Shown here piece by piece: positions 914 to 60,579 of a stretch of 64,000 nt of DNA. This DNA is from Nonlabens tegetincola (GTDB lineage: Bacteria; Bacteroidota; Bacteroidia; Flavobacteriales; Flavobacteriaceae). The position numbers were made by a program, and so were the translations under genes. Positions within the stretch are counted from its first letter, which is position 1, and every line of letters starts with the position of its first letter. The DNA lies in the NCBI RefSeq assembly GCF_002954355.1, contig NZ_MQVV01000010.1:124001-188000 (forward strand), read 5' to 3'. The notes under the pieces were generated by a model that was given only the letters and a program-made list of their open reading frames with translations, had not been told where the DNA came from and searched no databases.

Positions 914-1869
914 TATTTAATTATTCTTATAGAAACAAAAATATCAATACTAATATCACTGTCATGATAAAAGTACACGTAAATATCTTTTAATAAAGCT
1001 TTTACTAGATAGGTGCTTCCCTCAAAAAAGGTTTGCACAACTTGTACTTTGACTCCTTCATTATCAACAATCTCAATGCCATGAGGATAGACTAGCAACT
1101 CTTTATTATTATTAAGATATCCTGGTGGTATCACATTCACCTCTTCAAATAAAGATGCTGTATAGAAGGTGCCGGGAAAATTATAAATATTATGAGTATC
1201 ACCTTGAATTTCTATATGACCATCTTTCATCACAACAGTACGGTTTGTAAACGATAGAACATCATTCTTATCATGAGTAGCAATCATACACGCTATCCGA
1301 TTGCTTTTTAAATAGGCAAATAACCTACGCCTTAATTCGTTTTTCCTAAAATTATCAATGTGTGAAAATGGCTCATCTAGCAATAAAAGCTGTGGCTCTT
1401 GCGCAAGTGCTTTAGCTAGGGCTACTCTTTGTTTTTGTCCACCAGAAAGGTTTTTAACAATTGTATTTTTAAATGACGTAAGATCAACTGTATCTAAAAG
1501 TTCATCAATACGGTTTACTCTGTCATCATTTTGAATTGATAAATGTTCACCTATATTTTCGGCAACGGTGGTAAATGGCATCAAATCAAATTCTTGTGGC
1601 ACGTATTTCATCATTGAATGCCCGGGAACCAAATGATAATCGGGACCTAGTAATTCTTCATCATACCAATAAACTTTACCGCTTTCTTGTTGTAATAATC
1701 CATATGTCAAATTCAACAACGTACTTTTGCCACATCCACTTTCACCAATAATTGCCGCAATCTCACCTGTTTTGATTGCCAGGTTAATATTTTTTAGATT
1801 GTACGATGATTCATGGTTTTGATTATCCGCTTTCGCGAAAGCGAAATTTATATCTACTAATCGTAACAT
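913..1869 (-). CDS. ABC transporter ATP-binding protein with C-terminal TOBE-like extension
   Basis: A 318-residue stand-alone ABC ATPase. Walker A is GESGCGKST at residues 42-50, the Q-loop is PQEFD at 91-95, the signature LSGGQ is at 141-145, Walker B LLLLDEP at 161-167, and the H-loop histidine is H199 in ATHD. About 95 further residues form a beta-rich tail like the TOBE domains of spermidine, sulfate or iron importers. No permease or binding-protein gene is adjacent, only the coupled LEA-type lipoprotein downstream, so the substrate is unknown. The dispersed 16-bp palindrome lies within the first 15 codons and encodes AFAKA at residues 10-14, just before the ordered nucleotide-binding core. 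Family is certain, role is open. Confidence 0.85.
   Translation of the reverse strand: MLRLVDINFAFAKADNQNHESSYNLKNINLAIKTGEIAAIIGESGCGKSTLLNLTYGLLQQESGKVYWYDEELLGPDYHLVPGHSMMKYVPQEFDLMPFTTVAENIGEHLSIQNDDRVNRIDELLDTVDLTSFKNTIVKNLSGGQKQRVALAKALAQEPQLLLLDEPFSHIDNFRKNELRRRLFAYLKSNRIACMIATHDKNDVLSFTNRTVVMKDGHIEIQGDTHNIYNFPGTFYTASLFEEVNVIPPGYLNNNKELLVYPHGIEIVDNEGVKVQVVQTFFEGSTYLVKALLKDIYVYFYHDSDISIDIFVSIRIIK
1828..1843. repeat. Dispersed palindrome CGCTTTCGCGAAAGCG, copy 1 (in the ABC ATPase gene)
   Basis: A perfect 16-bp palindrome, read as AFAKA at residues 10-14 of the ABC ATPase. Confidence 0.95.
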
Positions 1870-1892
1870 AAATACAAAGATAAGAGACAGAA

Positions 1893-1916
1893 AACCCTAG
1901 CCATTTGACTAGGGTT
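1893..1916 (-). terminator. Terminator of the prolyl oligopeptidase gene
   Basis: An 8-bp stem AACCCTAG / CTAGGGTT with an eight-base loop. On the minus strand it follows the oligopeptidase stop by 26 bases and is followed by TTTT. Confidence 0.6.
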
Positions 1917-1942
1917 ATTTCTAATTTAATGCGTGTAATTGA

Positions 1943-4108: not shown

Positions 4109-4128
4109 AGTATTTCAGTTTTGGTTTT

Positions 4129-5463: not shown

Positions 5464-5524
5464 ACTTAGTAAAATCTTTACATTAAGAAGTAAAGATACT
5501 ACCTGATAAAACTAATCACAACCA

Positions 5525-6514: not shown

Positions 6515-6535
6515 GAAATAAAAATTTAAGCCTAC

Positions 6536-6630: not shown

Positions 6631-6644
6631 GCTTTCGCGAAAGC
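6631..6644. repeat. Dispersed palindrome core GCTTTCGCGAAAGC, copy 2 (intergenic asd/atpD)
   Basis: A perfect 14-bp core. The outermost pair of the 16-bp form is broken here (C before, A after), which defines the minimal conserved unit as 14 bp. Confidence 0.95.
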
Positions 6645-14881: not shown

Positions 14882-17800
14882 TCACCGCTTTACTGTAATC
14901 CATTTTCCCTGACTGCGCACAACATAATCACCATCGTACATAGCCTCAGCTTGTGAACCTGGCAAGTAGTAGTCTCCCAAATAACTTGCGTTAATAACCG
15001 TTTTTAAACTAATGGATTTTTTAGGCTGTAAGTCAAAATAGTAATGCACTCTATCATCTCTTATATCCTTATATTCTACCTGATTGTTTTCTTCGTCACC
15101 GTATTCAGTAAATCGAGTGTTTACCATTTCCCAACCAGACGGCACAATTTGTGAAAAAGCAACATCTCTAATAGTGACACCTGTTGTATTTGTTATGGTA
15201 GCTATTGCGGTAACCTCGGTTCCTTGAGAAAGATTACTAACGTCTATTGGATTTCCATTTTTGTCTGTATAAGCAACAACCATTGACAATTTACTTTGGA
15301 TTACTTTATCTTTACCTACGGGTAATTTCCCAGTTAAAGCTGTATTTAGAAACACGTCTACATTCCCTGTATTGGTCACTTGAATAGTTGTTGGATTATA
15401 AGCCACTTGTAAATCTCGCATCACTATACTTTTCTTGGACTCAATAACTTCCTTATTACCCTTATCAAGCAACTCGATACTAAATCCTGTACCGCCTAAA
15501 CTCTCTACATATTTATTAATTGATACCAGACTGTAACTTATTGCCTGCGTATTCATATATCGATTGTCAGCTAGTTGTTTGGCAATATTCTCAAGTAATT
15601 CTCTTGCTTTTTCTTTTTTACCCATGATGACATAAGTTTCCAATGCCATAGCACGATTTCTTTCTGGCGACCCATATGACCTGTAATCCCATTGATAGGG
15701 TGTAAAATCTATATTTGAATTGCTTAAAAGTTCATTTGCTACCTTTTGCTGTCCCACCATAGCATAGGCTGCTGCTAGTCGTAACTTAGAATTGTTTGAT
15801 AAATTACCGCTTTCGCGAAAGCGATTCATAGCACTTAAATCTGCAACACCAGCCAGCGCTAGTGTGTACAATCGATACGCTTGATTAAAGTCATTGTGAT
15901 CATTGTAACGCCATCTACTAGCGGCTTGTTTTTGATAAGCTATCCAATTTGATTTGAAAGTAACTGGGATGGCGTATCCTGCACGTTCTGCCTCTAACAT
16001 AAAATGACCAGCATAACTTGTTCCCCAATCATTTGGACTTCCTGCGCCTGGCCAGTATGACAATCCACCATCAGGGCGTTGAAAACTCGTCAACCTATTG
16101 ATGGCCATCTTTACATTGTTTGAGAGTGTCGATTGCTCTTGAGAATTCAAGTTTGCAACAGTAGACAATCCTAATTGTGGAAACGCTGCACTAGTGGTTT
16201 GTTCCACACAACCATGTGGATACCTTATTAAATAATTCAATCGTTTACCAATATTCATTTCTGGCAAGGTTGAGGCTGTGATTTTTCCCGAATTTGTTCC
16301 TTTACTTCCAAAAGGCTCTATAGGAATTGTTTTACTTTCTCCTGCCTTGAGTAATACCTGCTGACTGCTTGTGGTAAAAGGGTTGGGATTGACAATATCA
16401 ATTTCAGTTTTATAACTTGCCTTTTCACCAGATGAACTCGCAGAAAATTCTAATTGAGCAATTCCTACCTGATCTTTTACTTTAACATCAAAATAAGCTA
16501 ATTGATCTCCTACTTCTTCAAATTTTAACTGTTGTTGCTTAGGCCCTACTATTTCAAAATGATTTGATGGTTTAAAGCTGACTGTTACATTTTTAATATT
16601 GTCTTCCATCGCAAACACTGTTACTGGTAATTTGACAGTTTCTCCTGGAGTAAGCTTTCGCGGAAGCGAAGCCAGCATCATCAATGGTTTTTTTACAGGT
16701 GTTGTTTTTTGAGCGTTTCCATAAGACTCGTCTTTAACATTTGAAGCAACAACCATAGTGCGCACTGATCCCACATAATTGGGAATATCAATGGTGTGTG
16801 TACGACTTTTACCAGCTGCTACCTCAAAAGGACCAATATGACGCACCATAGGTTCAAATCGATTGGCCTTTTTTGCTTTGGCCGCTTGTGCTGTACCATC
16901 ACCACCTATTGCAAATGCCGCATCTATTCTACCACCATAAGCTCCAATTACATCATCATAAATATCCCAGGTTTTTACACCTAGGGCTTCTCTTGCAAAG
17001 AACTTATCCCAAGGATTTGGTGTTTTAAAATTTGTTAAGTCTAGTAGCCCTTCATCCACAACAGCCAGTGTATAGGTCATAGGCTTGTTATTCTTTTCAC
17101 TTACGGTTATAGAAACCTTACTTTCTGGTTGTAACGTTTCAGGCATTTTAATAACTGGTTGTAAATGCGTGTTTTTATTTTCTACCATTAAAGGTATTAC
17201 TCCATACATTCTTAATGGTAAATCGTTTGCTGTTGATGCATGAGGCTGTAAGTATGTTATATGTACATATACATTAGGAACATACCTGCTATCTATTGTT
17301 AATGTGGTGGTCGTTTTATCCTTGTTGGTTTGAACCCATTTTGCGTCTAAAATCTCTGTTCCATTTTCAATGGTAATCAAAGCTCTTCCACCGGAACTGC
17401 TAGGAAATGTTATTTGCGCTTGTTCATTTACATTATAGGATTCTTTATCTGCATTAAAAACCAGCATACTTGCCGTTTCTGGATCAGCTTTTCGTGATTT
17501 CCCTGCCCAACCTGGCCAATCCACGTAAACTATTTTACCTGTACTGTGACCACTTTCTGGATCATAAACTTTAACAAAATACCTACCCCATTCTGGGTAC
17601 TTGATTTGCATTTTAAAACTACCTTTTCCAGAGCCGTTTGTGGATATTTTTTGAGAATTTACTAATTGCCTGGATTCCATTGACTCATATCTCGATAATG
17701 AGTTTGACGTGCTTTGCCACCACCATCTCCACGATACTTTGTATACATTCACTTCAAGGTTTTGTCTAGCAGCTGCCTCTCCTTTCTCATTAACTGTGAC

Positions 17801-20395
17801 CACGTCAAAGGTGTGGTCTTTATCGGTTACTAACATCCCACGTCTTTTATCTCCTGGTGGTACTTTTAACCCGACATAATGTGTATATGGTGAGTAGGAC
17901 GATGAAGTAACATTGGTGCTGAAATCACCACCGTTTTCATAAACCTTAGTGAGAAAGTTAGCTTTTAGCATTCCAGGTGCTTGACTATTCAGCTCAGGAT
18001 TAATAGAAAAACTTGCCTTTCCATCATTATTTAATTTGCCATCAAAAACCTCGTTTTCTATCATTTCAAAATATCGAGATGGATCATCAAAATTATAGTT
18101 GTCATATTTAGGAAAGTTTGTCGATGTACTATAGTATTTTACAGTAGTATTTGCTTTTAGGTTTTTAGCCTTGGCACCATGTAACCACATAGCAGATAAA
18201 TCAATATCAACCTTTTTACCGCTGGTGATTAGATCATCTTCAAAATCTAACTGCACTTTAAGCCTATTAGGTTTTATCGTTTCAATCTTTAAAGTTTTAT
18301 AAAAGCTTATTCCTCCTACTTGAACTTGTACATTCCAATTTCCAGTAGGTGCTGTTTCGTCTGTTTGTAAATCAAATTGATACACTTTATTCAAGCCATT
18401 TTTTTGAACCTCTTGATGTATCATTTTACCATTAGGATCTCTTAACTCTAGTTTGATAGGGTGATTAGCAGGCAGTTTATTATCACTATCATTTAAAACA
18501 AATGATAAATAAATATGATCTCCTGGTCTCCATACTCCACGTTCTGTGTAGATATATCCTTTAATTCCCTTTTGCAATTGTTCTCCAGACGTGTCGAACT
18601 TACTTACCGGTAATACTTGCCCGTTATCTAATCTTACGTAAGCATATTGATCCTTATATTTAACTTTAACAAAATAAGCGACTTGATCTAGTTTAATTTG
18701 CGAGAGTCCACTGGCACTCGTCCTAGTAGTTGCAATTTCTTGTTGCTGGTAGTTATAAAAGGTCACTAATGATCCAGCAAGAGGACTTGTTGAAAGTAAA
18801 TTAGTCACAGCTACTAAAAAGCTATTATCCTGTCCTTTTTTAACGGTGACTCCTATATCACTAGCTAATATGTTTGTGCTTACTGTTTTATTCCTATAAA
18901 AACTATGTGTACAAGGATCTTCCCTATCTCGCCAGTTATAGGAATAATCGTATTCATCGTAATAATAGTTTTGGTAACTATCCCAATTTGTTGTTTCAAA
19001 GGAATCGTTATAATCTATTTCTTCGATTTCAGGTTGGTTTTCGGCAGTATAGTTGCAAGAGTAGGCGCTGTAAGCTAGTTTGTAATCCAATTCTACTCGA
19101 TATATTGCGCCAGGTTCTGGTGTAATAAGTTCATTTAAATCAACTGAAAATACATTCCATGTACTGATATTTTTAACGGAAGATTTCAAATCAAGTACCT
19201 TACGTGCAATAGGCCTACCAACCCTTCTCATATTCCCAGTAGATGCTATATTGTTAGATTGAAGAAATTGCAAAACATTATTTTCATATATACGATAAAC
19301 CATTACATCAACAGCGTTTAAGTTTACCGCTTTGAAACGAACGCTAGTATTTTGTGAACTAGGTAAAATTGCACCAGACTTAATCAATTTGACTTCTGGC
19401 TCTACTTGCTCAAAAGCGATATAGCTAGAAAATGGTTTTTTCAATTTGTATCCATCAGTACTTTCAACACCATTGAAAACCTCGACCATTTTGGAACCTG
19501 TGATAGCATTTAGTGTGTAGACTTTAACAGTATTAGATTCAATTTCTAGTTTGAGATCTTTTTGTCCTTCTATAGAAATTAAGCCATCTAAATTTTGTGT
19601 TTTTTTCAAAGGATCAGAAAAATGCACAGCAACATAAGATGATTCTGAATTGACAAGTTGAATATCAGTGACTAAAAAATTATCCTTTCCTGGTAAGGTA
19701 ATGGATACTTCATCTTTATCGTTTACTCCAATTGCAGTACCATTCCAAAAAACTTTAAGCTCCTGATCGTCGACGGTGCGTTTAATATTGTCAATTATAA
19801 AGCTAAAAGAACTGGCTTTTTCAATATCAGATTGAAAGCTAATATCTTGTTCTTTACTGTTAATCCTGGCTGTAACGATTTTTCTTGCATCTTCAAGTGT
19901 AAGAATATCGCTTGCACGTATAAAGCCTATAACACGTTGTGTGTTTTTGTCAACGCTTATAACAGGCTCAATGTTTACTATAAAATCTTGCTTAATCGTC
20001 TTGAAAGAAAAATTAAACTCTTTTAAATCGTCTTCTACCTGTAATAATTTACCAACCTGAAGTTTGACCTGATAATTAGTGTTGTTTTCTAAAGGTTCGT
20101 CCGGAACAAATGAAATTGTTTGATTATCAATAAAAATGGGTTTTCCCTTAACCTCTGGAGATATTTTAAACACATCTTCTGGTACTATTTGTCCAGAATT
20201 CCAATTAGTTTGTGGATTTGTAAATCTTACAGTTATATTTTCATGAGCACTTACAACATTATCGGTTACTTGATCTATTATAGTTCGGAATTTAAAAAAC
20301 TCGGCAGCTTGTTCTTCTTGAAGTTCTTTAGGGTTTTTCTCAGAACATGAAAAAAGTAATAATAAACAAGACGACAATAAAAGAAGTTTTTTCAT
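14882..20395 (-). CDS. Alpha-2-macroglobulin family lipoprotein with thioester motif
   Basis: A giant 1837-residue envelope protein. I start it at the ATG at 20395 because this gives a clean lipoprotein signal (MKKLLLLSSCLLLLFSC); the open frame begins 24 codons earlier without a signal-like sequence. Macroglobulin-type beta domains fill residues 30-1250, including an MG2-like segment around GYIYTERGVWRPGDHIYLS. The bait/A2M domain has the phrase AVVDEGLLDLT. The thioester is in PHGCVEQTTSAAFPQ near residue 1395, followed by the alpha-helical toroid (RPDGGLSYWPGAG). Bacterial A2Ms trap attacking proteases and are often encoded beside penicillin-binding protein 1C; here no pbpC is adjacent. 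Two palindrome copies, one perfect (15808) and one degenerate (16654), lie inside it. Confidence 0.93.
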   Translation of the reverse strand: MKKLLLLSSCLLLLFSCSEKNPKELQEEQAAEFFKFRTIIDQVTDNVVSAHENITVRFTNPQTNWNSGQIVPEDVFKISPEVKGKPIFIDNQTISFVPDEPLENNTNYQVKLQVGKLLQVEDDLKEFNFSFKTIKQDFIVNIEPVISVDKNTQRVIGFIRASDILTLEDARKIVTARINSKEQDISFQSDIEKASSFSFIIDNIKRTVDDQELKVFWNGTAIGVNDKDEVSITLPGKDNFLVTDIQLVNSESSYVAVHFSDPLKKTQNLDGLISIEGQKDLKLEIESNTVKVYTLNAITGSKMVEVFNGVESTDGYKLKKPFSSYIAFEQVEPEVKLIKSGAILPSSQNTSVRFKAVNLNAVDVMVYRIYENNVLQFLQSNNIASTGNMRRVGRPIARKVLDLKSSVKNISTWNVFSVDLNELITPEPGAIYRVELDYKLAYSAYSCNYTAENQPEIEEIDYNDSFETTNWDSYQNYYYDEYDYSYNWRDREDPCTHSFYRNKTVSTNILASDIGVTVKKGQDNSFLVAVTNLLSTSPLAGSLVTFYNYQQQEIATTRTSASGLSQIKLDQVAYFVKVKYKDQYAYVRLDNGQVLPVSKFDTSGEQLQKGIKGYIYTERGVWRPGDHIYLSFVLNDSDNKLPANHPIKLELRDPNGKMIHQEVQKNGLNKVYQFDLQTDETAPTGNWNVQVQVGGISFYKTLKIETIKPNRLKVQLDFEDDLITSGKKVDIDLSAMWLHGAKAKNLKANTTVKYYSTSTNFPKYDNYNFDDPSRYFEMIENEVFDGKLNNDGKASFSINPELNSQAPGMLKANFLTKVYENGGDFSTNVTSSSYSPYTHYVGLKVPPGDKRRGMLVTDKDHTFDVVTVNEKGEAAARQNLEVNVYKVSWRWWWQSTSNSLSRYESMESRQLVNSQKISTNGSGKGSFKMQIKYPEWGRYFVKVYDPESGHSTGKIVYVDWPGWAGKSRKADPETASMLVFNADKESYNVNEQAQITFPSSSGGRALITIENGTEILDAKWVQTNKDKTTTTLTIDSRYVPNVYVHITYLQPHASTANDLPLRMYGVIPLMVENKNTHLQPVIKMPETLQPESKVSITVSEKNNKPMTYTLAVVDEGLLDLTNFKTPNPWDKFFAREALGVKTWDIYDDVIGAYGGRIDAAFAIGGDGTAQAAKAKKANRFEPMVRHIGPFEVAAGKSRTHTIDIPNYVGSVRTMVVASNVKDESYGNAQKTTPVKKPLMMLASLPRKLTPGETVKLPVTVFAMEDNIKNVTVSFKPSNHFEIVGPKQQQLKFEEVGDQLAYFDVKVKDQVGIAQLEFSASSSGEKASYKTEIDIVNPNPFTTSSQQVLLKAGESKTIPIEPFGSKGTNSGKITASTLPEMNIGKRLNYLIRYPHGCVEQTTSAAFPQLGLSTVANLNSQEQSTLSNNVKMAINRLTSFQRPDGGLSYWPGAGSPNDWGTSYAGHFMLEAERAGYAIPVTFKSNWIAYQKQAASRWRYNDHNDFNQAYRLYTLALAGVADLSAMNRFRESGNLSNNSKLRLAAAYAMVGQQKVANELLSNSNIDFTPYQWDYRSYGSPERNRAMALETYVIMGKKEKARELLENIAKQLADNRYMNTQAISYSLVSINKYVESLGGTGFSIELLDKGNKEVIESKKSIVMRDLQVAYNPTTIQVTNTGNVDVFLNTALTGKLPVGKDKVIQSKLSMVVAYTDKNGNPIDVSNLSQGTEVTAIATITNTTGVTIRDVAFSQIVPSGWEMVNTRFTEYGDEENNQVEYKDIRDDRVHYYFDLQPKKSISLKTVINASYLGDYYLPGSQAEAMYDGDYVVRSQGKWITVKR
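15808..15823. repeat. Dispersed palindrome CGCTTTCGCGAAAGCG, copy 3 (in the A2M gene)
   Basis: Perfect 16 bp, read as RFRES in the helical thioester domain near residue 1526. Confidence 0.95.
16654..16667. repeat. Degenerate palindrome copy (GCTTTCGCGGAAGC) in the A2M gene
   Basis: One mismatch to the 14-bp core (A to G at position 10). It is read as LPRKL, i.e. in a different frame from the perfect copy in the same gene. Confidence 0.6.
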
Positions 20396-20511
20396 AATGG
20401 TATGGTTAGTAATCGGATAATGTCTTAAAGTTAATACAGTTATCACTGATTTATAGTAGAACGGCAATTATTTTACAATTATTTTATTTTACCATGCCTG
20501 TAAAGAGTGTT

Positions 20512-21712: not shown

Positions 21713-22981
21713 TTATAGGTCAAATCCTATATCACTTCTATAATACATCTTATCAAATTGTAACTGTTTTACATTTTGATAAGATTTTTTTAGTGCCTGT
21801 TTGAAATCTTCACCATAACTGGTTACAGCAATAACTCTACCTCCATTAGTGACAACAGCACCATCTTTAACAGTTGTACCTGCGTGAAACACAATGCTGT
21901 CTTCAACTTCATTAATCCCTGTAATCACTTTCCCTTTTTCATAGGCTTCTGGATATCCACCAGACACACACATTACTGTAGTAGCACTACGACTGTCTAT
22001 TTCAAGTTGCTCCTTGTTTAATTCCGCTTTCGCGAAAGCGGACAAATGTCTTAATAAATCGGACTTAATTCTAGGTAGAACAACCTCTGTTTCAGGATCA
22101 CCCATGCGCACGTTGTATTCTATTACATAGGGTTCTTGATTTACTATCATTAGGCCAATAAATACAAAACCTTTATAAGTAATCGATTCCTTTTTAAATC
22201 CAGAAATGGTAGGCTGTATAATACGTTGCTCAACCTTTTCCATCAAGATATGATCTGCAAATGGTACTGGAGACACGGCGCCCATTCCACCCGTGTTTAA
22301 ACCAGTATCGCCTTCACCTATTCGTTTATAGTCCTTAGCATTAGGTAATATTTTATAATTCTCTCCATCGGTCATTACAAATACACTCATTTCAATACCG
22401 TCAAGGAATTCTTCAATCACGACTTTATTGGACGCTTCACCAAATTTTCCTCCTACAAGCATTTCTTCTAGGTTATCTTGAGCTTCTTTAAGATCCTTAA
22501 TTATAAGTACACCTTTTCCTCCTGCTAGACCATCGGCTTTAAGCACATAAGGAGCTTTTAGAGTTTCTAAAAATCTCTTTCCATCCTCTACAGTTTGGGC
22601 CGTAAAACTAGAATAGGCAGCCGTTGGAACACCGTTGCGCTGCATGAATTCCTTGGCAAACTCTTTAGAACCTTCCAAAACAGCACCTTTCTTTGAAGGA
22701 CCTATAACATTAATATGTGATGTTTCTTCTTGTTGGAAATAATCATAAATCCCGGCAACTAGTGGTGCCTCTGGACCTACAACAATCATATTAATATCGT
22801 TTTTTAACGAGAACTCTTTGATAGCATCAAAATCAGTGACACCTAGATCAACATTTGTTGCTATTGCTGCCGTACCTGCGTTACCAGGTGCAACATATAA
22901 TTGGGTTAGTAATTCGCTTTTTTCAATAGCGTGGGCAAATGCGTGCTCACGACCACCGCTACCTAAAATAAGTACGTTCAT
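21713..22981 (-). CDS. purD: Phosphoribosylamine-glycine ligase (GARS)
   Basis: A 422-residue ATP-grasp enzyme, the second step of purine synthesis, joining glycine to 5-phosphoribosylamine. The N-terminal motif MNVLILGSGGREHA, the phrase VAPGNAGTA, the ATP-grasp lid LKADGLAGGKGV and the metal/ATP region EYNVRMGDPETEVVLPR are all standard, as is the length. A TACTTTTG promoter element lies 19 bases upstream. A perfect copy of the dispersed palindrome falls at residues 314-319 (SAFAKAE), in a surface region where E. coli PurD also varies. Confidence 0.98.
   Translation of the reverse strand: MNVLILGSGGREHAFAHAIEKSELLTQLYVAPGNAGTAAIATNVDLGVTDFDAIKEFSLKNDINMIVVGPEAPLVAGIYDYFQQEETSHINVIGPSKKGAVLEGSKEFAKEFMQRNGVPTAAYSSFTAQTVEDGKRFLETLKAPYVLKADGLAGGKGVLIIKDLKEAQDNLEEMLVGGKFGEASNKVVIEEFLDGIEMSVFVMTDGENYKILPNAKDYKRIGEGDTGLNTGGMGAVSPVPFADHILMEKVEQRIIQPTISGFKKESITYKGFVFIGLMIVNQEPYVIEYNVRMGDPETEVVLPRIKSDLLRHLSAFAKAELNKEQLEIDSRSATTVMCVSGGYPEAYEKGKVITGINEVEDSIVFHAGTTVKDGAVVTNGGRVIAVTSYGEDFKQALKKSYQNVKQLQFDKMYYRSDIGFDL
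22025..22040. repeat. Dispersed palindrome CGCTTTCGCGAAAGCG, copy 4 (in purD)
   Basis: Perfect 16 bp, extended to 18 bp by one flanking C/G pair; read as AFAKA. Confidence 0.95.
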
Positions 22982-29413: not shown

Positions 29414-29429
29414 CGCTTTCGCGAAAGCG
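29414..29429. repeat. Dispersed palindrome CGCTTTCGCGAAAGCG, copy 6 (between sufB and the lipoprotein gene)
   Basis: Perfect 16 bp in the 81-base gap inside the suf operon. As RNA it could form a small hairpin, but no T run follows on the minus strand. Confidence 0.95.
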
Positions 29430-40982: not shown

Positions 40983-40983
40983 C

Positions 40984-41817
40984 ATGAAAGTCACAAGAAA
41001 TCTTTCCGTTTTAGGGGAAAATGATCGTCCTCTAGTATATGACGTTTTTGATCCACAAGTATCTGATAAACATCCGGTCATCTTGTTTTGTCATGGATTT
41101 AAAGGTTTTAAAGATTGGGGTGCGTGGGATTTGATGTGTTCCGCTTTCGCGAAAGCGGGATATCTCACAATCAAGTTCAATTATTCCCACAATGGCGGTA
41201 CTTTAAAACAACCTATAGATTTTCCAGATTTAGAGGCCTTTGGCAATAACAATTACAATATTGAACTACGTGATACAACCAGAATGCTAGATTTAATAAC
41301 CTCTAGTAATTTACCTATTGATCATGATCATATAACAATTATGGGACATTCTAGGGCTGGTGGAATCACCACAATAACCGCTGCTAAAGATAAAAGAATA
41401 AAAAAGCTAATCACACTTGCTGGTGTCGCAGACTATAAATCAAGGTTTCCTAGTGGAACAGAATTAAAAGATTGGGAGAATAAGGGCGTTATGCACATTA
41501 AAAATGGCCGCACCCAACAGGAAATGCCACTTTATTATCAATTCTATCAAGACTTTATCGCTCATGAAAACGAGCTTACAATTTTAGACCAAGCCACACG
41601 GTTAAATTGTCCGCATCTTATTATTCATGGAACATTAGACCCAACAGTTTCTATCAACGAAGCATATAGATTAAAACAAGCTAATTCTCTCGCAGAAATG
41701 GCTTTTATAAATGGCGCAAATCATGTTTTTGGTGCCATGCATCCCTGGAATAGAAGTAATTTGCCTAATGACCTACAACGTGTGGTACAATGTAGTTTAA
41801 ACTTCTTAAATAAGTAA
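40984..41817 (+). CDS. Alpha/beta hydrolase (dienelactone-hydrolase-like)
   Basis: A 277-residue serine hydrolase. The oxyanion motif is LFCHGFKGFKDWG, the nucleophile Ser in IMGHSRAGG, acid in HGTLDPTVS and base His in GANHVFG, all in the right order. It begins with the ATG one base after the nuclease stop codon; the TTG six codons upstream in frame lies inside the nuclease gene and is not needed. A perfect palindrome encodes SAFAKAG at about residues 53-58. Substrate unknown. Confidence 0.88.
   Translation: MKVTRNLSVLGENDRPLVYDVFDPQVSDKHPVILFCHGFKGFKDWGAWDLMCSAFAKAGYLTIKFNYSHNGGTLKQPIDFPDLEAFGNNNYNIELRDTTRMLDLITSSNLPIDHDHITIMGHSRAGGITTITAAKDKRIKKLITLAGVADYKSRFPSGTELKDWENKGVMHIKNGRTQQEMPLYYQFYQDFIAHENELTILDQATRLNCPHLIIHGTLDPTVSINEAYRLKQANSLAEMAFINGANHVFGAMHPWNRSNLPNDLQRVVQCSLNFLNK
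41142..41157. repeat. Dispersed palindrome CGCTTTCGCGAAAGCG, copy 8 (in a hydrolase gene)
   Basis: Perfect 16 bp, extended to 18 bp by a flanking C/G pair; read as AFAKA. Confidence 0.95.
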
Positions 41818-43911: not shown

Positions 43912-45027
43912 GTGTTACCAGATAAACTTTATCGTAAAATTGGACTCAGGCATTTTTCAGGAAGTCTAAGGAAATTAAGCGAGGTTCATGAGAAAATTGA
44001 TTTTGCCTCAAATGACTATCTAGGCTTTTCCAACTCTCTTAAAATAGAACATAAACATTTTCCATCAGGATCGACAGGCTCTAGATTGATAACGGGTCAC
44101 AGTCAATTCCACACACAAGTAGAACAACAAATTGCAGCCTTTCATGATGTTGAGGCAGCATTGCTTTTCAACTCAGGTTATGATGCAAATCTAGGAGTAA
44201 TTTCATCACTTACAGATCGTATGGATCTTATTCTGTATGATGAAAAAGTTCATGCTAGTATAAGAGATGGAATACAGCTTTCTAAAGCCAAGGCACTTAA
44301 GTTCAAACATAACGATCTAGATCATCTTAAAATTTTACTTGAGAAGTTTCATGATGGACTAGATCGAGAGGTTTACATCCTTACCGAATCCGTGTTTTCT
44401 ATGGATGGTAATTCACCCGATCTTGCTAGGTTAATAGAAATTACTGCCTCATTTAAAAATGCTCACCTCATCCTAGATGAGGCTCATAGTCTAGGAGTTC
44501 ATGGAAATCAAGGAGAAGGACTTGCGCAGTCTTTAAACTTGCATAACGCTATTTTTGCACGCATCATCACCTATGGAAAAGCTATGGGCGCACACGGCGC
44601 AGCAGTTCTAGGTAGTGAGGATCTCAAAGAATATTTAATAAACTATTCTCGACCTTTCATTTATACTACGGCTATTCCACCGCACGCAATTGCTTATATA
44701 CAATCGGCTTATAAAAAATTACAAGACCAACCTGAAATCGTTATACAACTGCAAGAAAACATTGCGTTTTTCAATAAATGTATAGTTAGAATGGGATTGA
44801 GATTACGCTTTCGCGAAAGCGTAACACCTATACAAATATGTATTATACCAGATAACCATAAAGTAAAACAACTCTCTAGTGTATTACAAGCAAAAGGTTT
44901 TGATGTAAGAGCCATACTATCACCTACAGTTCCTAAAGGAGAAGAGAGGTTGCGTATTTGCCTGCACTCCTTTAACACTAAAAACGAAATGCAAGATTTG
45001 TTACAACTACTTGCCAAAAACATTTGA
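43912..45027 (+). CDS. bioF: 8-amino-7-oxononanoate synthase (KAPA synthase)
   Basis: A 371-residue PLP enzyme that condenses pimeloyl-ACP/CoA and alanine, the first committed biotin step. Family motifs: DFASNDYLGFS, GSTGSRLITGHS, DEAHSLGVHG and the PLP lysine in TYGKAMGAHGA. The GTG at 43912 is the natural start; a -7-like TACATTTA ends four bases before it. It leads the cluster bioF, DUF2007, bioD, bioA, ketoacyl synthase, bioB. A perfect palindrome encodes RFRES at residues 299-303. Confidence 0.93.
   Translation: MLPDKLYRKIGLRHFSGSLRKLSEVHEKIDFASNDYLGFSNSLKIEHKHFPSGSTGSRLITGHSQFHTQVEQQIAAFHDVEAALLFNSGYDANLGVISSLTDRMDLILYDEKVHASIRDGIQLSKAKALKFKHNDLDHLKILLEKFHDGLDREVYILTESVFSMDGNSPDLARLIEITASFKNAHLILDEAHSLGVHGNQGEGLAQSLNLHNAIFARIITYGKAMGAHGAAVLGSEDLKEYLINYSRPFIYTTAIPPHAIAYIQSAYKKLQDQPEIVIQLQENIAFFNKCIVRMGLRLRFRESVTPIQICIIPDNHKVKQLSSVLQAKGFDVRAILSPTVPKGEERLRICLHSFNTKNEMQDLLQLLAKNI
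44806..44821. repeat. Dispersed palindrome CGCTTTCGCGAAAGCG, copy 9 (in bioF)
   Basis: Perfect 16 bp, read as RFRES. Confidence 0.95.
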
Positions 45028-47326: not shown

Positions 47327-47384
47327 AATTCAACAGCAATGTCGGGTTTATTACCGATTTTTGCCCTTAAACAAATTTACATTG

Positions 47385-48497
47385 TTGAAATCACCCATTT
47401 TCATACAGAAATCTGCATTTATTGCTGCAGTTGATAGTTTTACTATACAACCGCAACACGCTCAATTTACTGTAGAGAATAACGCATTGGTAAGCCGTAT
47501 TAATCCTAAAGATGAGGAGCGGTTACAAAGCTTTCTAGAAACTCATTCTTCCTACAAGAATTTAGATCGTAGTGTTCAATTAGCTTTACTCTGCGCGCAG
47601 GATTTAGGAGTTAATAATACACAAACTGCTGTGAATATAGGCAGTAGTCGTGGCGCTACAGGACTATGGGAAAATTTTTATTCTCGCTTTCGCGAAAGCG
47701 GAACTGTTCCTACTCCTACCTCACCACTCACTACATTGGGTAATATTTCTAGCTGGGTGGCACAGGATTTAGATCTTAAGGGAATGGCAATGTCACACAG
47801 TATTACCTGCGCTACCGCATCGCATGCTATTGTCAATGGTATCGCGTGGTTAGAAAGCGGAATGGCACAACAAGTTATTGCTGGTGGTAGCGAGGCCCCA
47901 TTAACAGAATTCACCATAGCACAAATGAAAGCGTTGCGCATCTATAGTGAAGCTATTGATGATGAATATCCATGTAAAGCACTGGACGTTGATAAAAAAG
48001 AAAATAGTATGATTTTAGGTGAAGCTGCTGCCCTATTACTACTTTCAAAAAAGCAAGAGAATACTAACATTGCAATCACTGGATATGGTACTGCTATAGA
48101 GCCCTTAACCAGCGCTACATCCGTATCAGACACAGGTACATGTTTGCAAGAATCAATGAAGCAGGCTATAGGAAAAACTCCATTAAATGATATCGACGCA
48201 GTGATCACACATGCTCCTGGTACGATAAAAGGTGACCGTGCAGAACTTAATGCTATTAAAAAACTCTTTGGTAGCACGACTCCGATACTGTGTAACAATA
48301 AATGGCAAGTTGGACATTCGCTAGGAGCAAGCGGTGCATTAAGCGTGTGTATGGCAATTGAAATGCTAGAAAAGCAATGTATTGTATCACCACCATACTT
48401 GAACAATCATAAGATTAATACTGCACAAAAAATTCTGGTAAATGCAACTGGTTTTGGTGGTAATGCAGTAAGTTTATTAATTGAAAAACTAAAGTAA
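47385..48497 (+). CDS. Beta-ketoacyl synthase (KAS I/II-like) in the biotin operon
   Basis: A 370-residue thiolase-fold enzyme. The catalytic cysteine is in ITCATASHA, the first histidine in THAPGTIKGD and the second in VGHSLGASG: the Cys-His-His triad of KAS I/II. It is shorter (370) than FabF (about 410) and lacks the usual FabF N-terminus. There is no ATG; I choose the TTG at 47385, because the earlier TTG at 47361 overlaps a GATTTTTG promoter-like element. Lying between bioA and bioB, it probably contributes to synthesis of the pimelate chain, but this is inferred from position. A palindrome copy encodes RFRES near residue 101. Confidence 0.85.
   Translation: MKSPIFIQKSAFIAAVDSFTIQPQHAQFTVENNALVSRINPKDEERLQSFLETHSSYKNLDRSVQLALLCAQDLGVNNTQTAVNIGSSRGATGLWENFYSRFRESGTVPTPTSPLTTLGNISSWVAQDLDLKGMAMSHSITCATASHAIVNGIAWLESGMAQQVIAGGSEAPLTEFTIAQMKALRIYSEAIDDEYPCKALDVDKKENSMILGEAAALLLLSKKQENTNIAITGYGTAIEPLTSATSVSDTGTCLQESMKQAIGKTPLNDIDAVITHAPGTIKGDRAELNAIKKLFGSTTPILCNNKWQVGHSLGASGALSVCMAIEMLEKQCIVSPPYLNNHKINTAQKILVNATGFGGNAVSLLIEKLK
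47685..47700. repeat. Dispersed palindrome CGCTTTCGCGAAAGCG, copy 10 (in the ketoacyl synthase gene)
   Basis: Perfect 16 bp, read as RFRES. Confidence 0.95.
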
Positions 48498-51969: not shown

Positions 51970-53082
51970 TTAAACACCTTCCTCAATGTAGACTCTTGGA
52001 ACACGTGCCTGAATACCTGTTATTAATTCATAAGAAATAATCCCTACTTCTTCGGCCATTTCTTGGGCATTATGTTCGTTATCATAGATAATAACCTCAT
52101 CACCTCGTTTACAAGGAATATCCGTTACATCTACCATGAACATGTCCATACAAATTATACCTAGAGTGCGTGCTGGCTTTCCATTTATGTAGACAAAAGC
52201 GCCACCATAGCCGTAAACTCTTTTCATACCATCACCGTGACCTAGAGGTATTACGGCGTATGTCATGTCCTTTGAAGCATGGTGGGATCTATTATAACTT
52301 ATACTCTCGCCTTTTTTAATAGACCTCACCTGTGAGACCACCGATTTAAGGGTTCCTACAGGTTTAAAATTGTCTTGATACTTCTTATCGTTACCGTAAC
52401 CATACAAACCTATTCCAGATCGCACCATGTCAAAATGGGCATTTGGAAAATTTAATATGCCACTAGTATTACATTGATGTTTTACACAATCATACCCCAA
52501 TACCGATTCAGCCTTTTTAGCTAATTCAGTAAATGTATCTATTTGCTTTTGAGTGAAGGTAATTTCCTCTAAATCTTCACTAGCTGCTAGATGAGACATC
52601 AATCCTTTAACTTTTAAGTGATCCTGCTTATTAAGCATTCCTAGAATAGCATCAAGTTCCTCAGCATCAATTCCTATACGATTTAGACCCGTATTAAATT
52701 CAAGGTGAACAGGATAGTTGGTCTGGTGTTTCGCTTTCGCGAAAGCGTAAAAATCCTCCAACATTTCCTTGCTGTAAATCACAGGTTCTATGCACCTATC
52801 TATACAATCTGGTAGGTTGTGTTGCTGCGCGTGTAATACTAAAATAGGTGTTGTGATTCCGTTGTTGCGCAATTCAACTGCCTCGTCAACATAGGCAACA
52901 GCAAAATAGTTCACACCACATTCTTGTAATTTTTGAGCCACTGGGACTAGACCGTGACCATAGGCCTGTGCTTTCACTACAGCCATAAACAAGGTGCTGT
53001 CACTTGTTTTACTACGTAAGTACTTGTAGTTGTGCTCAAGTGCAGCAAGGTTTACAACAAGTCTTGTTCCTCTATGAATCAT
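51970..53082 (-). CDS. alr: Alanine racemase
   Basis: A 370-residue PLP enzyme that makes D-alanine for peptidoglycan. The PLP lysine is K37 in [13 protein letters not shown] (the usual VVKANAYGHG), the catalytic tyrosine in [14 protein letters not shown] region, and the motifs [19 protein letters not shown] and [12 protein letters not shown] are standard. It overlaps the tdk gene by 11 bases, so they form an operon. The palindrome copy encodes YAFAKAKH at residues 112-117. Confidence 0.95.
52732..52747. repeat. Dispersed palindrome CGCTTTCGCGAAAGCG, copy 11 (in alr)
   Basis: Perfect 16 bp, read as AFAKA. Confidence 0.95.
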
Positions 53083-56015: not shown

Positions 56016-56023
56016 TACTTTTG
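56016..56023 (+). promoter_or_regulatory. Promoter -7 element of the cupin gene
   Basis: TACTTTTG, nine bases before the ATG at 56033; predicted leader only about five bases. Confidence 0.5.
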
Positions 56024-56032
56024 TCCGTTGCT

Positions 56033-56905
56033 ATGGGACTTAATCTAGAACAAATACCGAGAGTAAAAACACTTAGTAAAGCAGATTTTATAAAGTATTA
56101 TTTAAAACCTCAAAAACCAGTTGTAATTGAACAACTTACAGAGGACTGGCCTGCATATGAAAAGTGGAATCTAGAATACATACGTAAAATGGCTGGCGAT
56201 CAGACTGTGCCACTTTACGATGACAGACCTGTACGACATGATGAAGGTTTTAATCAAGCTCATGCAGAAATGAAAATGACAGATTATATAGATCTGTTAC
56301 TTGAAAAACCTACCAATTTCAGAATATTTCTTTATAACATTCTTAAAGAAGTACCTGCCTTACAAAAAGACTTTAAATTTCCAGACATTGGCTTAAAGTT
56401 GATTAAAGGTCTACCCATGATGTTCTTTGGTGGGACCGATTCAAAAGTGTTTATGCATTTTGATATAGACTTTACAAACATTTTACACTTTCATTTTCAC
56501 GGTAAAAAACGTTGTATAATTCTACCACCTGATCAATCAAAGTATTTATATAGAGTTCCTCATTCTTTAATTTCTAGAGAAGATATCGATTTTACAAATC
56601 CTGATTTTGATAAGTGGCCAGCGCTTAAGCAAGCACAAGGGTATGTATGTGAGCTCAATCATGGTGAAATGTTATATATGCCAGAAGGTTACTGGCATTA
56701 CATGCACTATTTAACACCAGGGTTTTCAATAAGCTTGCGCAGTTACCCTAGAAAAATTAAAAATCTAGGAAAAGCTCTTTATAATCTGCTTATCATGAGA
56801 CACTATGACAACTTCATGCGCAGGCGTAAAGGTCAAGAATGGATAGATTATAAAAACGAGCAAGCCATCGTACGTACTCATAAAAAATTAGGGATCAAGG
56901 TATAA
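56033..56905 (+). CDS. Cupin-like (JmjC-type) dioxygenase domain protein
   Basis: A 290-residue protein of the cupin_8/JmjC family, Fe(II)- and 2-oxoglutarate-dependent oxygenases related to FIH and tRNA wybutosine hydroxylases. The iron ligands are the H-x-D of MHFDIDF near residues 142-144 and a distal histidine in YWHYMHYLTPGFSISLR near residue 224-230. The N-terminus (GLNLEQIPRVKTLSKADFIKYYLKPQKPVVI) is typical of the family. ATG at 56033 is preferred over an upstream TTG. It overlaps convergent recX by 11 bases. Target (protein or small molecule) unknown. Confidence 0.88.
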   Translation: MGLNLEQIPRVKTLSKADFIKYYLKPQKPVVIEQLTEDWPAYEKWNLEYIRKMAGDQTVPLYDDRPVRHDEGFNQAHAEMKMTDYIDLLLEKPTNFRIFLYNILKEVPALQKDFKFPDIGLKLIKGLPMMFFGGTDSKVFMHFDIDFTNILHFHFHGKKRCIILPPDQSKYLYRVPHSLISREDIDFTNPDFDKWPALKQAQGYVCELNHGEMLYMPEGYWHYMHYLTPGFSISLRSYPRKIKNLGKALYNLLIMRHYDNFMRRRKGQEWIDYKNEQAIVRTHKKLGIKV

Positions 56906-57371
56906 GTTCTTGAATTTTCTCATATACCAAATTACTTTCCCATCCTCGGTAAAGTAGGTAATCAGCAAGTTTTTTACGTCTTTTATATTTATCCTTCTCT
57001 TTAAGTTGGTTATTACGCTTTCGCGAAAGCGTATCAAATACATGGTAATAATCCTCTGGTTCAATCTCTTGGAGTCCAACCTTTATGGTTCTATCATTAA
57101 GACCTCGCATTTTGAGCTCTCTGATAATTCGTTGTTTTCCCCAACTTTTAATTCTGAACTTGCCTCTGGCAAAAGCACTTGCAAACCTAGTTTCATTCAA
57201 AAAATCGTGTTCTATCAAATGACCAACCACCTCATCGATTGCGAGTTGAATCATGTTCATTTTTCTTAACTTTTCAACTACTTCCTTGTGACAACGTTCC
57301 TGATAAGCACAGTATCGTTCTAGAGTGCGTTTTGCCTCTTCAACAGTAAAAGAACCGTGTGTAGGGTTCAT
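56895..57371 (-). CDS. recX: Regulatory protein RecX
   Basis: A 158-residue all-helical regulator that binds RecA filaments. The three tandem RecX helical repeats are visible (RTLERYCAYQERCHKEVVEKL; FLNETRFASAFARGKFRIKSWGKQRI; KLADYLLYRGWESNLVYEKIQ). It starts four bases after the SDR gene. The palindrome is here in the third frame, encoding TLSRKR at residues 113-118, in the linker between helical repeats. Confidence 0.9.
   Translation of the reverse strand: MNPTHGSFTVEEAKRTLERYCAYQERCHKEVVEKLRKMNMIQLAIDEVVGHLIEHDFLNETRFASAFARGKFRIKSWGKQRIIRELKMRGLNDRTIKVGLQEIEPEDYYHVFDTLSRKRNNQLKEKDKYKRRKKLADYLLYRGWESNLVYEKIQELIP
57016..57031. repeat. Dispersed palindrome CGCTTTCGCGAAAGCG, copy 12 (in recX)
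   Basis: Perfect 16 bp, read as LSRK, the only perfect copy in this third frame. Confidence 0.95.
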
Positions 57372-57375
57372 AAAA

Positions 57376-58131: not shown

Positions 58132-58379
58132 TTAATTTGTTTTAAACTTCCTTTTTCAAATTCTATATAATGGATAATTAAAGCTATTATCCTACTAAAT
58201 AAGGATATGGTAAAGATAAAGTTTTGCCATTCCCGATAAAAAGGTTTGGAAAAGATCTTCCCTTTCATCTAGTAAAATAGAAAATGACAGTTGAGGTATG
58301 TGATTTCACATTTCAGGTAACTCAATTCTTTGTGCACATAAGGTAATCACACTTTTGTATCAGAATAAAAACTGAAACC

Positions 58380-60521
58380 ATGAAAATCCTTAATTACCTC
58401 ATTTTCTTTATTAGTATATCATCAATATCCCAAACCAGCATTACAGGAACAGTTGTAGAACCAGATGGCACACCAGTTCTAGGTGCCAATGTTTATTTAG
58501 AAGGCACCTATGATGGAACGACTACAAACATGGATGGAGTATTTAACTTTACCACTACCCAAACAGGTGCTCATACCCTGGTAATTACTTTTATAGGATA
58601 TGATGAGTTTAGGCATAACGCAAGCGTAAGCCAAATGCAAGAAATCAAAGTACGCTTACGCGAAAGCATGAATTCACTTAACACGGTTGTGATTAGTGCA
58701 GGCAGCTTTAGTGCTGGAGATAATTCAAAAACCAACGCTTTAAAACCCTTAGACATTGTTACTACTGCAGGTGCGCTAGGAGATGTTATAGGCGCTTTTC
58801 AAACACTTCCTGGAACCAGCGCAAATCCAGATGACGGACGCTTATTCATAAGAGGTGGCCAGGCTGATGAAACACAAATTTTCATCGATGGTAGTAGAGT
58901 TTTTCAACCTTTCTTACCCGTTACAGGAAACATTGCTACTCGTGGTAGATTTTCCCCTTTCTTATTTGATGGTATTTCTTTTTCCACTGGTGGTTACAGT
59001 GCCGAATTTGGTAATGCACTGAGCGGAGTTTTACTTCTAAACTCAACCGATCTACCGCTCGAGGAACGCACAGATTTATCTGTCATGACCGTAGGAGCAT
59101 CAGCTAGTAGAACAGAAATTTGGAATAACGAAAGTATTACTGTAAACGCATCCTACTTTAATCTAGGCCCTTACAACGAGCTCATCCCTCAAAACAATCA
59201 GTTTGAAGACCCATATCAATCTCTCGCAGGTGAAGCTGTGTATCGTAAAAAAACTAACAAAGGCCTGTTCAAAGCCTATGGAGCCTATTCCTATTCCGAT
59301 TTTAGTCTCATTCAAGAAGACATTAATTTACCAGATGGAATTTTCTTTGGCCTTAATAATAACAATCTTTATGGTAATTTAAATTATGAAGTTGAATTAG
59401 GTAACGAGTGGTCATTAGAATCAGGAGCAAGTTTATCCCATGACCGCAACCAATTAAAGATATCAGAAACTAGAATTAGAACACAGCAAAATGCTACCCA
59501 TTTAAAAGTAAAAACAAATAAACGGTATAGCAATTACTTTAATATGAGTTATGGTATAGAACAGTTTTCTATTAACACCAATCAAGACGTTGCATTAACA
59601 AATGAAAGCTTTAAATCAGGGATCACTTTTTCCAATACTGCTGCCTATGCTGAATCTGAAATATTTGCCAATAAAAGCCTGGCCTTTAAGATAGGCGTAC
59701 GTGCCGATTATTATGACCACCTACAAAAAGTTAATGTCTCACCTAGATTGAGCGCAGCACTCAGTTTAACTGATCACAGTCAGGTCTCTCTCGCTTATGG
59801 TGATTTTTACCAACCGCAAACAGATCAAGCTTTGCAATATGAGCCAAGGCTAGATAACCAAAGAGCAACCCATTTTATAGCTAATTATTTATATAAGAAA
59901 AATGGCCGCATGCTACGTATTGAAGCTTATCGTAAAAACTATAACCAGTTATTACGATACGATACGAGCATGCCAGAGATCAATAGTTCATTTAATACAA
60001 CTGGTGATGGATATGCGCAAGGGTTAGACGTATTTTGGAGAGATGACAAAAGCTTGAAAAATCTTGAGTACTGGGTAAGTTATAGTTATTTAGACACTGA
60101 AAGACAATTTAGAAACTTTCCTGAACAGGCAACTCCCAATTTTGCTACCGATCATAATTTGAGTATCGTAACTAAATATTGGGTAGAAGATTGGAAGTCT
60201 CAATTAGGTCTTACTTACAATCTAGCAAGTGGTAGGCCTTATACCGATCCCAACAGTAGTGGATTTCAAAACAGCAAGGCAAAATCATTTCAATCTTTAG
60301 ATATGAGCTGGGCTTACCTCATCGATGATCAAAAAATCTTATATCTATCTGTAAGCAACGTTTTAGGTCGTGATAATGTATTTGGTTATCAATATAGTAA
60401 TACACAAAACTCAAATGCGCAATTTGACCGTAGAACCATAGGGCAAGCTGCGGATAGGTTTATTTTCCTTGGATTTTTCTGGACGATAGGTGGTAACGAT
60501 AATCAATTGGATAATTTATAA
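58380..60521 (+). CDS. TonB-dependent receptor with carboxypeptidase-like N-terminal domain
   Basis: A 713-residue outer-membrane receptor. A signal peptide is followed by a CarboxypepD_reg-like beta domain (about 21-100; GTVVEPDGTPVLGANVYLEGTYDGTTTNMDGVF), then the plug domain (about 110-215; GALGDVIGAFQTLPGTSANPDDGRLFIRGGQ) and a beta-barrel to the end. The barrel is short for the family and lacks a canonical C-terminal aromatic; the final residues are NQLDNL. No SusD partner is adjacent, so uptake of an iron complex, vitamin or small oligomer is possible. A degenerate palindrome is inside (58653). Confidence 0.9.
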   Translation: MKILNYLIFFISISSISQTSITGTVVEPDGTPVLGANVYLEGTYDGTTTNMDGVFNFTTTQTGAHTLVITFIGYDEFRHNASVSQMQEIKVRLRESMNSLNTVVISAGSFSAGDNSKTNALKPLDIVTTAGALGDVIGAFQTLPGTSANPDDGRLFIRGGQADETQIFIDGSRVFQPFLPVTGNIATRGRFSPFLFDGISFSTGGYSAEFGNALSGVLLLNSTDLPLEERTDLSVMTVGASASRTEIWNNESITVNASYFNLGPYNELIPQNNQFEDPYQSLAGEAVYRKKTNKGLFKAYGAYSYSDFSLIQEDINLPDGIFFGLNNNNLYGNLNYEVELGNEWSLESGASLSHDRNQLKISETRIRTQQNATHLKVKTNKRYSNYFNMSYGIEQFSINTNQDVALTNESFKSGITFSNTAAYAESEIFANKSLAFKIGVRADYYDHLQKVNVSPRLSAALSLTDHSQVSLAYGDFYQPQTDQALQYEPRLDNQRATHFIANYLYKKNGRMLRIEAYRKNYNQLLRYDTSMPEINSSFNTTGDGYAQGLDVFWRDDKSLKNLEYWVSYSYLDTERQFRNFPEQATPNFATDHNLSIVTKYWVEDWKSQLGLTYNLASGRPYTDPNSSGFQNSKAKSFQSLDMSWAYLIDDQKILYLSVSNVLGRDNVFGYQYSNTQNSNAQFDRRTIGQAADRFIFLGFFWTIGGNDNQLDNL
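58653..58667. repeat. Degenerate palindrome copy in the TonB receptor gene
   Basis: CGCTTACGCGAAAGC differs from the element by one base (T to A) and encodes RLRES, one substitution from RFRES. Confidence 0.6.
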
Positions 60522-60563
60522 GAGCAACAACTCAGTACTGTTAAATAACAGTTGGGTTTATTA

Positions 60564-60579
60564 CGCTTTCGCGAAAGCG
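60564..60579. repeat. Dispersed palindrome CGCTTTCGCGAAAGCG, copy 13 (intergenic)
   Basis: Perfect 16 bp in the 100-base gap after the TonB receptor gene; a small hairpin ACTGTT-AAAT-AACAGT lies just before it at 60537-60552. Confidence 0.95.

Follow-up and report, generated by a model that had tools for sequence, protein, structure and literature searches.

The window, by which we mean the whole 64,000-nucleotide stretch of the Nonlabens tegetincola genome that was analyzed, carries 13 exact copies of the 14-bp palindrome GCTTTCGCGAAAGC in unrelated surroundings that include a purD-like and a ketoacyl-synthase-like ORF (Table 1). No copy arose in 100 dinucleotide shuffles of the window, in agreement with the enormous enrichment claimed in an earlier note on this DNA. 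The same note had given 12 copies with the full 16 bp and placed most copies inside genes, and both statements are borne out by our count of 12 of 13 (the exception, at 6631, lacks the final G) and by a simple longest-ORF gene call that puts 10 of 13 copies inside ORFs and 3 of 13 between genes. Its coordinates were correct to within one base; 12 of them give the first letter of the 16-mer, which precedes the 14-mer by one base. Two one-mismatch relatives lie in the window. A locus search that used the purD-like protein as query recovered no relative.

Table 1. Palindrome copies and one-mismatch relatives in the window.
Feature	Position	Context
Palindrome copy 1, 16 bp	1828..1843	in ORF 913..1869 (-)
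Palindrome copy 2, 14-bp core with 5' C, 3' G missing	6631..6644	intergenic
Palindrome copy 3, 16 bp	15808..15823	in ORF 14882..20467 (-)
One-mismatch relative GCTTTCGCGGAAGC	16654..16667	
Palindrome copy 4, 16 bp	22025..22040	in purD-like ORF 21713..22981 (-)
Palindrome copy 5, 16 bp	24132..24147	in ORF 23773..24282 (-)
Palindrome copy 6, 16 bp	29414..29429	intergenic
Palindrome copy 7, 16 bp	33193..33208	in ORF 32737..33483 (-)
Palindrome copy 8, 16 bp	41142..41157	in ORF 40966..41817 (+)
Palindrome copy 9, 16 bp	44806..44821	in ORF 43912..45027 (+)
Palindrome copy 10, 16 bp	47685..47700	in ketoacyl-synthase-like ORF 47361..48497 (+)
Palindrome copy 11, 16 bp	52732..52747	in ORF 51970..53082 (-)
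Palindrome copy 12, 16 bp	57016..57031	in ORF 56895..57371 (-)
One-mismatch relative GCTTACGCGAAAGC	58654..58667	
Palindrome copy 13, 16 bp	60564..60579	intergenic

Abundance and lineage range

The enrichment extends to the whole genome and to genomes of the family, which establishes the palindrome as a genome-wide iterated motif. The 3.03-Mb source genome holds 577 copies of GCTTTCGCGAAAGC, where about 0 are expected and the reversed control sequence has none, and all 16 bp are present in 464 of the 577. The consensus is strict: there are 42 possible one-mismatch sequences, and together they account for 51 copies (577 of 628 exact); perfect copies outnumber one-mismatch copies in 25 of 25 genomes tested, by a ratio of at least 2.2. 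All 23 Nonlabens (Flavobacteriaceae) genomes carry 288-857 copies each, and two genera besides Nonlabens carry 408 and 857, while the remaining 391 of 397 sampled family genomes have 0-19. Dokdonia records, from a genus that includes proteorhodopsin model strains, also contain the palindrome, and the lineage with the weakest-looking motif is that of genome G190. In some motif-poor genomes the few copies cluster with efflux-type genes, and some copies in such genomes lie in apparently transferred islands. Stretches of 3.2 kb around rplB from 13 motif-rich genomes had no site; these stretches are homologous and protein conservation also forbids sites there, so this zero is by itself uninformative about highly expressed genes.

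Other iterated palindromes (at least 10 bp, three copies) were sought in 40 stretches from 40 other genera of the family. After seven contigs below 3 kb were dropped, 33 stretches of 11.5-20 kb were used, and 32 of them had none; the exception, in genome G032, is a 273-bp tandem repeat. Among phages, two related Nonlabens phages have no site in 70 kb, and some other phage contigs carry sites, one of them with an integrase. At least 120 IMG/VR stretches contain the motif, but their median GC of 53% makes many of these matches likely chance. The 14-mer occurs in no paper of the literature searched, a body in which subscription journals and preprints are mostly uncovered; the string TTTCGCGAAA appears in 10 papers that are unrelated, judged by title, and no title or abstract opening describes the motif, partly as judged among the matches listed.

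Site structure, placement and conservation

The palindrome is embedded in extended flanks. On either side, over about 17 bp, the sequence is strongly C-poor 5' and G-poor 3' with preferred T/A positions; the pattern is dyad-symmetric, and whichever strand is read, the flank 5' of the core is GT-rich. The 34 flank columns together hold 8.2 bits (random, 0.00 +/- 0.06). Although no fixed sequence is kept beyond the 16 bp, composition is, and the earlier view that the flanks are unconserved is wrong. A site carries about 40 bits in total, and sites could be located with about 12. Binding sites kept for recognition alone usually need fewer bits than this.

Sites favor non-coding DNA, with 23 of 90 lying outside ORFs in 6% of the sequence (67 of 90 in ORFs) and, in genome G242, 35 of 96 in 8.5%. 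They are also far more evenly spaced than random, with coefficients of variation (CV) of 0.476, 0.421 and 0.632 in three genomes versus 0.98; in 10-40 kb bins, the variance-to-mean ratio of counts is 0.16-0.30 in two Nonlabens genomes and 0.36-0.47 in G206. The sole complete chromosome sampled, G190, is from outside Nonlabens and has the weakest motif. Twenty 20-kb bins were placed evenly along its single contig; every bin has 1-5 sites, and together they have 49. This spread without gross bias speaks against the segregation role near origin or terminus raised earlier, and the absence of any origin-terminus restriction or grading in G190 led us to reject sites of the Noc, ParB and MatP kinds.

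Site positions are conserved between species at 69% identity: 40 of 53 are kept, and 42 of 63 from the other side, compared with 2.2% of random 14-mers. The aligned but unshared sites number 34 (13 counted from one side and 21 from the other). Of these, 23 lie in ORFs (11 and 12), where the longest core gap is 4 bp, and 11 lie between genes, where one site in G242 is opposite a core-length gap in G000 and the others have gaps of 0-9 bp. Since there is neither fixed sequence beyond 16 bp nor an insertion gap at unshared ORF sites, the earlier conclusion that the palindrome is not part of a larger insertion stands. Species differences at the sites appear to be mostly substitutions, as read from blastn alignments that may favor aligning sites and that compare congeners only, with no outgroup.

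Candidate functions

The palindrome is probably a "self" tag or an anchor for a putative DNA-binding protein. As the best explanation, albeit a tentative one, we favor a self-recognition sequence of the uptake type, maintained by drive. Here the palindrome would be the core of a dyad-symmetric recognition site of about 50 bp for one sequence-specific DNA-binding protein, and DNA of relatives that carries the site would be preferentially taken up or exchanged. Copies born by point mutation would spread and be held near-perfect by molecular drive rather than by per-site fitness; little would be gained by a new copy that lies near one already present, and this would produce the even spacing.

Several observations support the uptake reading. 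In passages of Redfield et al. (2006; PMC1626085), an excess of perfect over one-mismatch copies is said to be puzzling and to set uptake sequences apart from regulatory sites, and non-coding preference, origin by mutation and, for the Pasteurellaceae type, flanking motifs are described. The palindrome matches this picture in its excess of perfect copies, its non-coding preference, its flanks and its lack of large core gaps in ORFs, the 23 unshared ORF sites being as expected of the point-mutation origin of USS/DUS. We also counted in its favor the information content far above that needed, the even spacing, the low counts in motif-poor genomes and the two site-free Nonlabens phages. The USS/DUS of Pasteurellaceae and Neisseriaceae, as far as the accounts of them cover these points, likewise reach hundreds of copies or more, are lineage-specific and occur in both coding and non-coding DNA; even spacing is reported for them too, a likeness that is one of description.

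Other features count against it. The core of USS/DUS is asymmetric, measures about 9-12 bp and recurs about once per kb, whereas the present motif, recurring about once per 4-5 kb, is an exact 14-16 bp palindrome with symmetric flanks in Bacteroidota, where we know of no earlier uptake or self-recognition system of this kind. Both its palindromic core and its lower density weigh against uptake, and according to Bakkali (2007; PMC1939737) known uptake sequences are not palindromes. Positional conservation between species fits per-site selection equally well, and uptake alone does not predict the sites on some phage contigs. The very even spacing was also entered on this side. ComEC, encoded by all 13 motif-rich genomes examined, is in line with uptake, but all 10 motif-poor genomes encode it as well and it does not discriminate between the two groups; no receptor gene was found, and no title or abstract opening among the matches listed reports competence in Dokdonia.

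A close rival, which we regard as a realistic possibility, is a homodimeric or tetrameric nucleoid protein that would bind palindrome and flanks, with sites about every 4-5 kb serving looping, compaction or topological domains. A palindromic core with dyad-symmetric flanks of about 17 bp each way suits such a protein, as do the low count variance, the retention of positions between species and the sites on phage contigs, including the one with an integrase. Noc/ParB and MatP sites offer a partial parallel, being palindromic protein sites of 13-16 bp; however, a genome has at most tens of them, at positions biased toward or against the origin or terminus, whereas the motif here has hundreds of copies across the whole sampled chromosome (G190). 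Against chromosomal anchors stand a consensus far stricter than such proteins usually need, the other genera of the family that manage without the motif, and the fact that no binding protein was found.

The remaining readings fit poorly. A HIP1-like motif is improbable; in that model a methyltransferase that targets the palindrome would, jointly with mismatch repair, create and maintain it. HIP1 is GCGATCGC, 8 bp long and more frequent than the palindrome, which differs from GCGATCGC in sequence, and we know of no wide symmetric flank rule for HIP1. HIP1 and the alternate HIPs of cyanobacteria are, like our motif, highly iterated palindromes of certain lineages, and the relevant passages of Elhai (2015; PMC4390886) tie HIP1 to orphan methyltransferases. 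By contrast, of 13 motif-rich genomes 6 lack PF00145 (C5 methylase), 5 lack PF01555 and two (G242 and G405) lack both, which rejects a methyltransferase link for these two families; the even spacing and 17-bp flanks are also unexplained by this model. The earlier note had likened the palindrome to HIP1 or uptake motifs: kinship with HIP1 is not supported, and the uptake comparison is the one best supported, by analogy.

We consider it quite unlikely that the palindrome is a hot spot of recombination, acting in both directions as a Chi-like signal in AddAB/RecBCD-type repair. The density is near that of Chi, which is over-represented at about one per 4-5 kb in E. coli, on either strand the 5' flank is GT-rich, and the window encodes a protein with a PDDEXK_1 domain, a domain also present in AddB. 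Yet known Chi sites are short and oriented, the 37 sites in the 150 kb of E. coli tested are spaced much as at random (CV 1.07), and no Chi known to us resembles a 14-16 bp palindrome with 17-bp flanks. We give very little credence to a structural element, for although a single strand can fold into a 6-bp stem with a 4-nt loop and one of 34 unshared sites faces a core-length gap, a hairpin or terminator is contradicted by the overall lack of covariation above chance between symmetric flank positions (P <0.05 at 2 of 21), and a REP-like repeat or small mobile palindrome by the predominance of ORF sites, flanks that keep composition with no longer fixed unit, and differences at ORF sites that amount to substitutions or to gaps no longer than 4 bp, the one possible insertion being intergenic.

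Biological meaning

Iterated motifs such as uptake sequences, HIP1 and Chi reveal systems of DNA exchange, repair and chromosome layout, and the palindrome of these marine flavobacteria is longer than any of these, very strict and very evenly spaced. We hold with moderate confidence that it forms a chromosome-wide molecular ruler in Nonlabens and a few relatives, with several hundred near-perfect, evenly spaced dyad sites read by a putative dedicated protein, and that it represents either the first palindromic uptake or self-recognition system or a new kind of nucleoid with periodic anchors. Because regular spacing is retained across species that share about 69% identity, drive can be tested against per-site selection. 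The lineage of G190, with its weaker-looking motif, is a natural comparison. The palindrome is a ready bait for its putative protein and a marker by which genes transferred from these genera can be traced.

Abundance and range of the palindrome

The 14-bp palindrome GCTTTCGCGAAAGC occurs in 13 exact copies in the window, 12 of them with the full 16 bp (the core flanked by C and G), in agreement with the earlier note, and in none of 100 dinucleotide shuffles. The claimed enrichment extends to the whole N. tegetincola genome (G000; 3,028,293 bases, 21 contigs), which holds 577 copies of the 14-mer and 464 of the 16-mer versus none of the reversed word. Sites carry ~40 bits, and ~12 bits are enough to locate 577 sites. 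Exact versus ≤1-mismatch counts over whole genomes were 577 vs 628 in G000, 762 vs 851 in another Nonlabens genome (G397), 857 vs 1017 and 408 vs 536 in motif-rich genomes of two other genera (G206 and G190), and 288 vs 421 in G408, a Nonlabens draft of 78% completeness; the reversed word gave a chance level of 0-5. The exact-to-one-mismatch ratio of this draft (288 vs 133) is the lowest in Nonlabens, which possibly marks a lineage losing the system.

Counts in related flavobacteria, which the earlier note had called for, show at least one copy in 80 of 397 Flavobacteriaceae genomes and hundreds in just six, namely four Nonlabens (577-664), G206 (857) and G190 (408), the remaining 391 having 0-19 each; every Nonlabens genome searched (23/23) has 288-857. 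At the order level, 17 of 395 genomes contain any copy of the 16-mer, with hundreds solely in G000, G010 and G206 and a next highest count of 12. A rarer 24-mer form, scarce enough even within Nonlabens that its search can miss carriers, matched 11 stretches among 84,980 species genomes: six from Nonlabens or BBFL7, four from Dokdonia (31.7 kb, with five additional 14-mers) and one from a Flavobacteriaceae MAG. In a tree of rplB (a single 3.2-kb marker, 23 genomes), Nonlabens forms one clade and G206 and G190 a second, with motif-poor G087 grouping with the former and motif-poor G078 and G101 with the latter, so this one marker points to repeated loss or more than one gain.

Site anatomy and spacing

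The earlier note had described the flanks as unconserved; 372 half-sites, from 186 exact copies in G000 and its congener G242, contradict this. The 5' flank is poor in C and rich in G/T to ~18 bp out, with T favoured at -3, -4, -10, -12 and -13, and the 3' flank is its mirror image, giving 8.2 bits outside the 16-mer versus 0.00 +/- 0.06 for random columns. G206 follows the same composition rule, which is weaker in G190 (C at -1 in only 58%). Although a single strand can fold into a 6-bp stem, symmetric flank positions show no overall covariation (lowest P 0.012 and 0.039 among 21), a pattern of a putative dyad protein site and not of a hairpin. Among 25 one-mismatch copies in Nonlabens, 14 are altered at the fifth base of the core or the base symmetric to it; G206 variants tend instead to lose one end, a hint of a drifting consensus.

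By approximate longest-ORF gene calls, 67 of 90 sites lie within ORFs in G000 (ORFs cover 94% of 448 kb) and 61 of 96 in G242 (91.5% of 400 kb). Spacing is strikingly even, with coefficients of variation of 0.476 in G000 (90 sites), 0.421 in G242 (96 sites) and 0.632 in G206 (68 sites) versus ~0.98 for random placement, and none of 5,000 placements per genome reached the observed evenness. Intervals below 1.5 kb number 1 (23 expected), 2 (29) and 10 (22), respectively. Along the single contig of G190, each of 20 evenly placed 20-kb bins contains 1-5 sites (49 in total). E. coli Chi, by contrast, has a coefficient of 1.07 (37 sites, 150 kb); bearing on a Chi-like role, the window encodes a protein of 906 aa that ends in a PDDEXK_1 nuclease domain and is possibly AddB-like.

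Features located in the window and in other stretches
Sequence	Position	Feature
Window	10181-12367	Phytochrome-type histidine kinase (PAS_2, GAF, PHY, HisKA, HATPase)
Window	38262-40982	906-aa protein
G242, joined stretch	129397	Intergenic site opposite core-length gap
L022	6589 and 7522	Pair in 405-aa efflux-type gene
L023	6432 and 7365	Pair in 405-aa efflux-type gene
L025	6728 and 7661	Pair in 405-aa efflux-type gene
L033	6267 and 7200	Pair in 405-aa efflux-type gene
G076:C3	32330-82910	Stretch dense in 16-mers
L243	5692 and 7609	Two copies of GTTCCACGTGGAAC, ~1.9 kb apart; possibly parS-like sites
L330 (G032)	1796-3175	Six palindrome copies at 273-bp period; rejected as a tandem repeat mimicking an iterated palindrome

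Conservation between species

Mean identity in the alignment of G000 with G242 is 69.1%. Of 53 G000 sites whose alignment includes 20 bp on either side, 40 are kept without change (first count 41/54), versus 436 of 20,000 random and 108 of 5,000 equal-G+C 14-mers; reciprocally, 42 of 63 G242 sites are kept. Unshared sites fall within gene calls in 11 of 13 cases from the G000 side and 12 of 21 from the G242 side, and their counterparts show substitutions plus core gaps of ≤4 bp. Most counterparts of the intergenic ones (two from G000, nine from G242) have gaps of 0-9 bp; one G242 site faces a core-length gap in G000 and may reflect insertion or deletion. Blastn may favour site-to-site alignment, mainly in intergenic DNA.

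Candidate functions

Our leading, though tentative, reading is that the palindrome may act as an uptake-type self-recognition sequence. Redfield et al. 2006 (PMC1626085) list as marks of such sequences an excess of perfect over one-mismatch copies, flanking motifs (a trait of Pasteurellaceae that Neisseria lacks), enrichment in non-coding DNA and mutational origin; the palindrome shares all four, the last with reservation over intergenic gaps. ComEC, found in 23 of 23 motif-rich and motif-poor genomes alike, is compatible with uptake and lends it no support. Two points count against uptake: according to Bakkali 2007 (PMC1939737), uptake sequences are not palindromes, and their spacing, although Karlin saw significant evenness, is still less even than compaction would require. 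The palindromes might instead be anchors of chromosome organisation, a close rival that we hold only slightly less likely than uptake. As to methylation, PF00145 methyltransferases were not found in 6 of 13 motif-rich genomes nor PF01555 in 5, and neither was found in G242 and G405.

Copies in phages and motif-poor genomes

Two phages of Nonlabens, P12024S and P12024L, whose genes are arranged in much the same way and whose displayed features include no integrase, have no copy in 70 kb of host-like G+C, where ~14 would be expected at the density of the Nonlabens genomes surveyed. Sixteen low-GC IMG/VR records (20 loci), picked for containing the motif, have 1-5 copies each. Of the two contigs with partly annotated proteins, L114 encodes an integrase and L113 a head maturation protease. 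One site sits at the same place in related contigs L096, L114, L138 and L100 (87-95% identity), and a second site of L096 is not present in L114.

In 11 motif-poor genomes, 20 stretches totalling 303 kb, likewise picked for containing the motif, yielded 42 exact and 10 one-mismatch copies. Six have 3-5 exact copies or a pair exactly 933 bp apart, and the others have one. Five proteins are annotated there: an RND transporter, an outer-membrane efflux protein, a heavy-metal P-type ATPase, a Fur-like regulator and a histidine kinase. Four genomes from other genera have the 933-bp pair within one gene of the outer-membrane efflux type (405 aa), apparently in a transferred metal-efflux island common to them. 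Separately, at least 10 of the 12 full 16-mers of G076 lie inside one 50-kb stretch, which suggests that a motif-rich donor supplied a large island. Copies in the 20 stretches look to have arrived by transfer from motif-rich donors.
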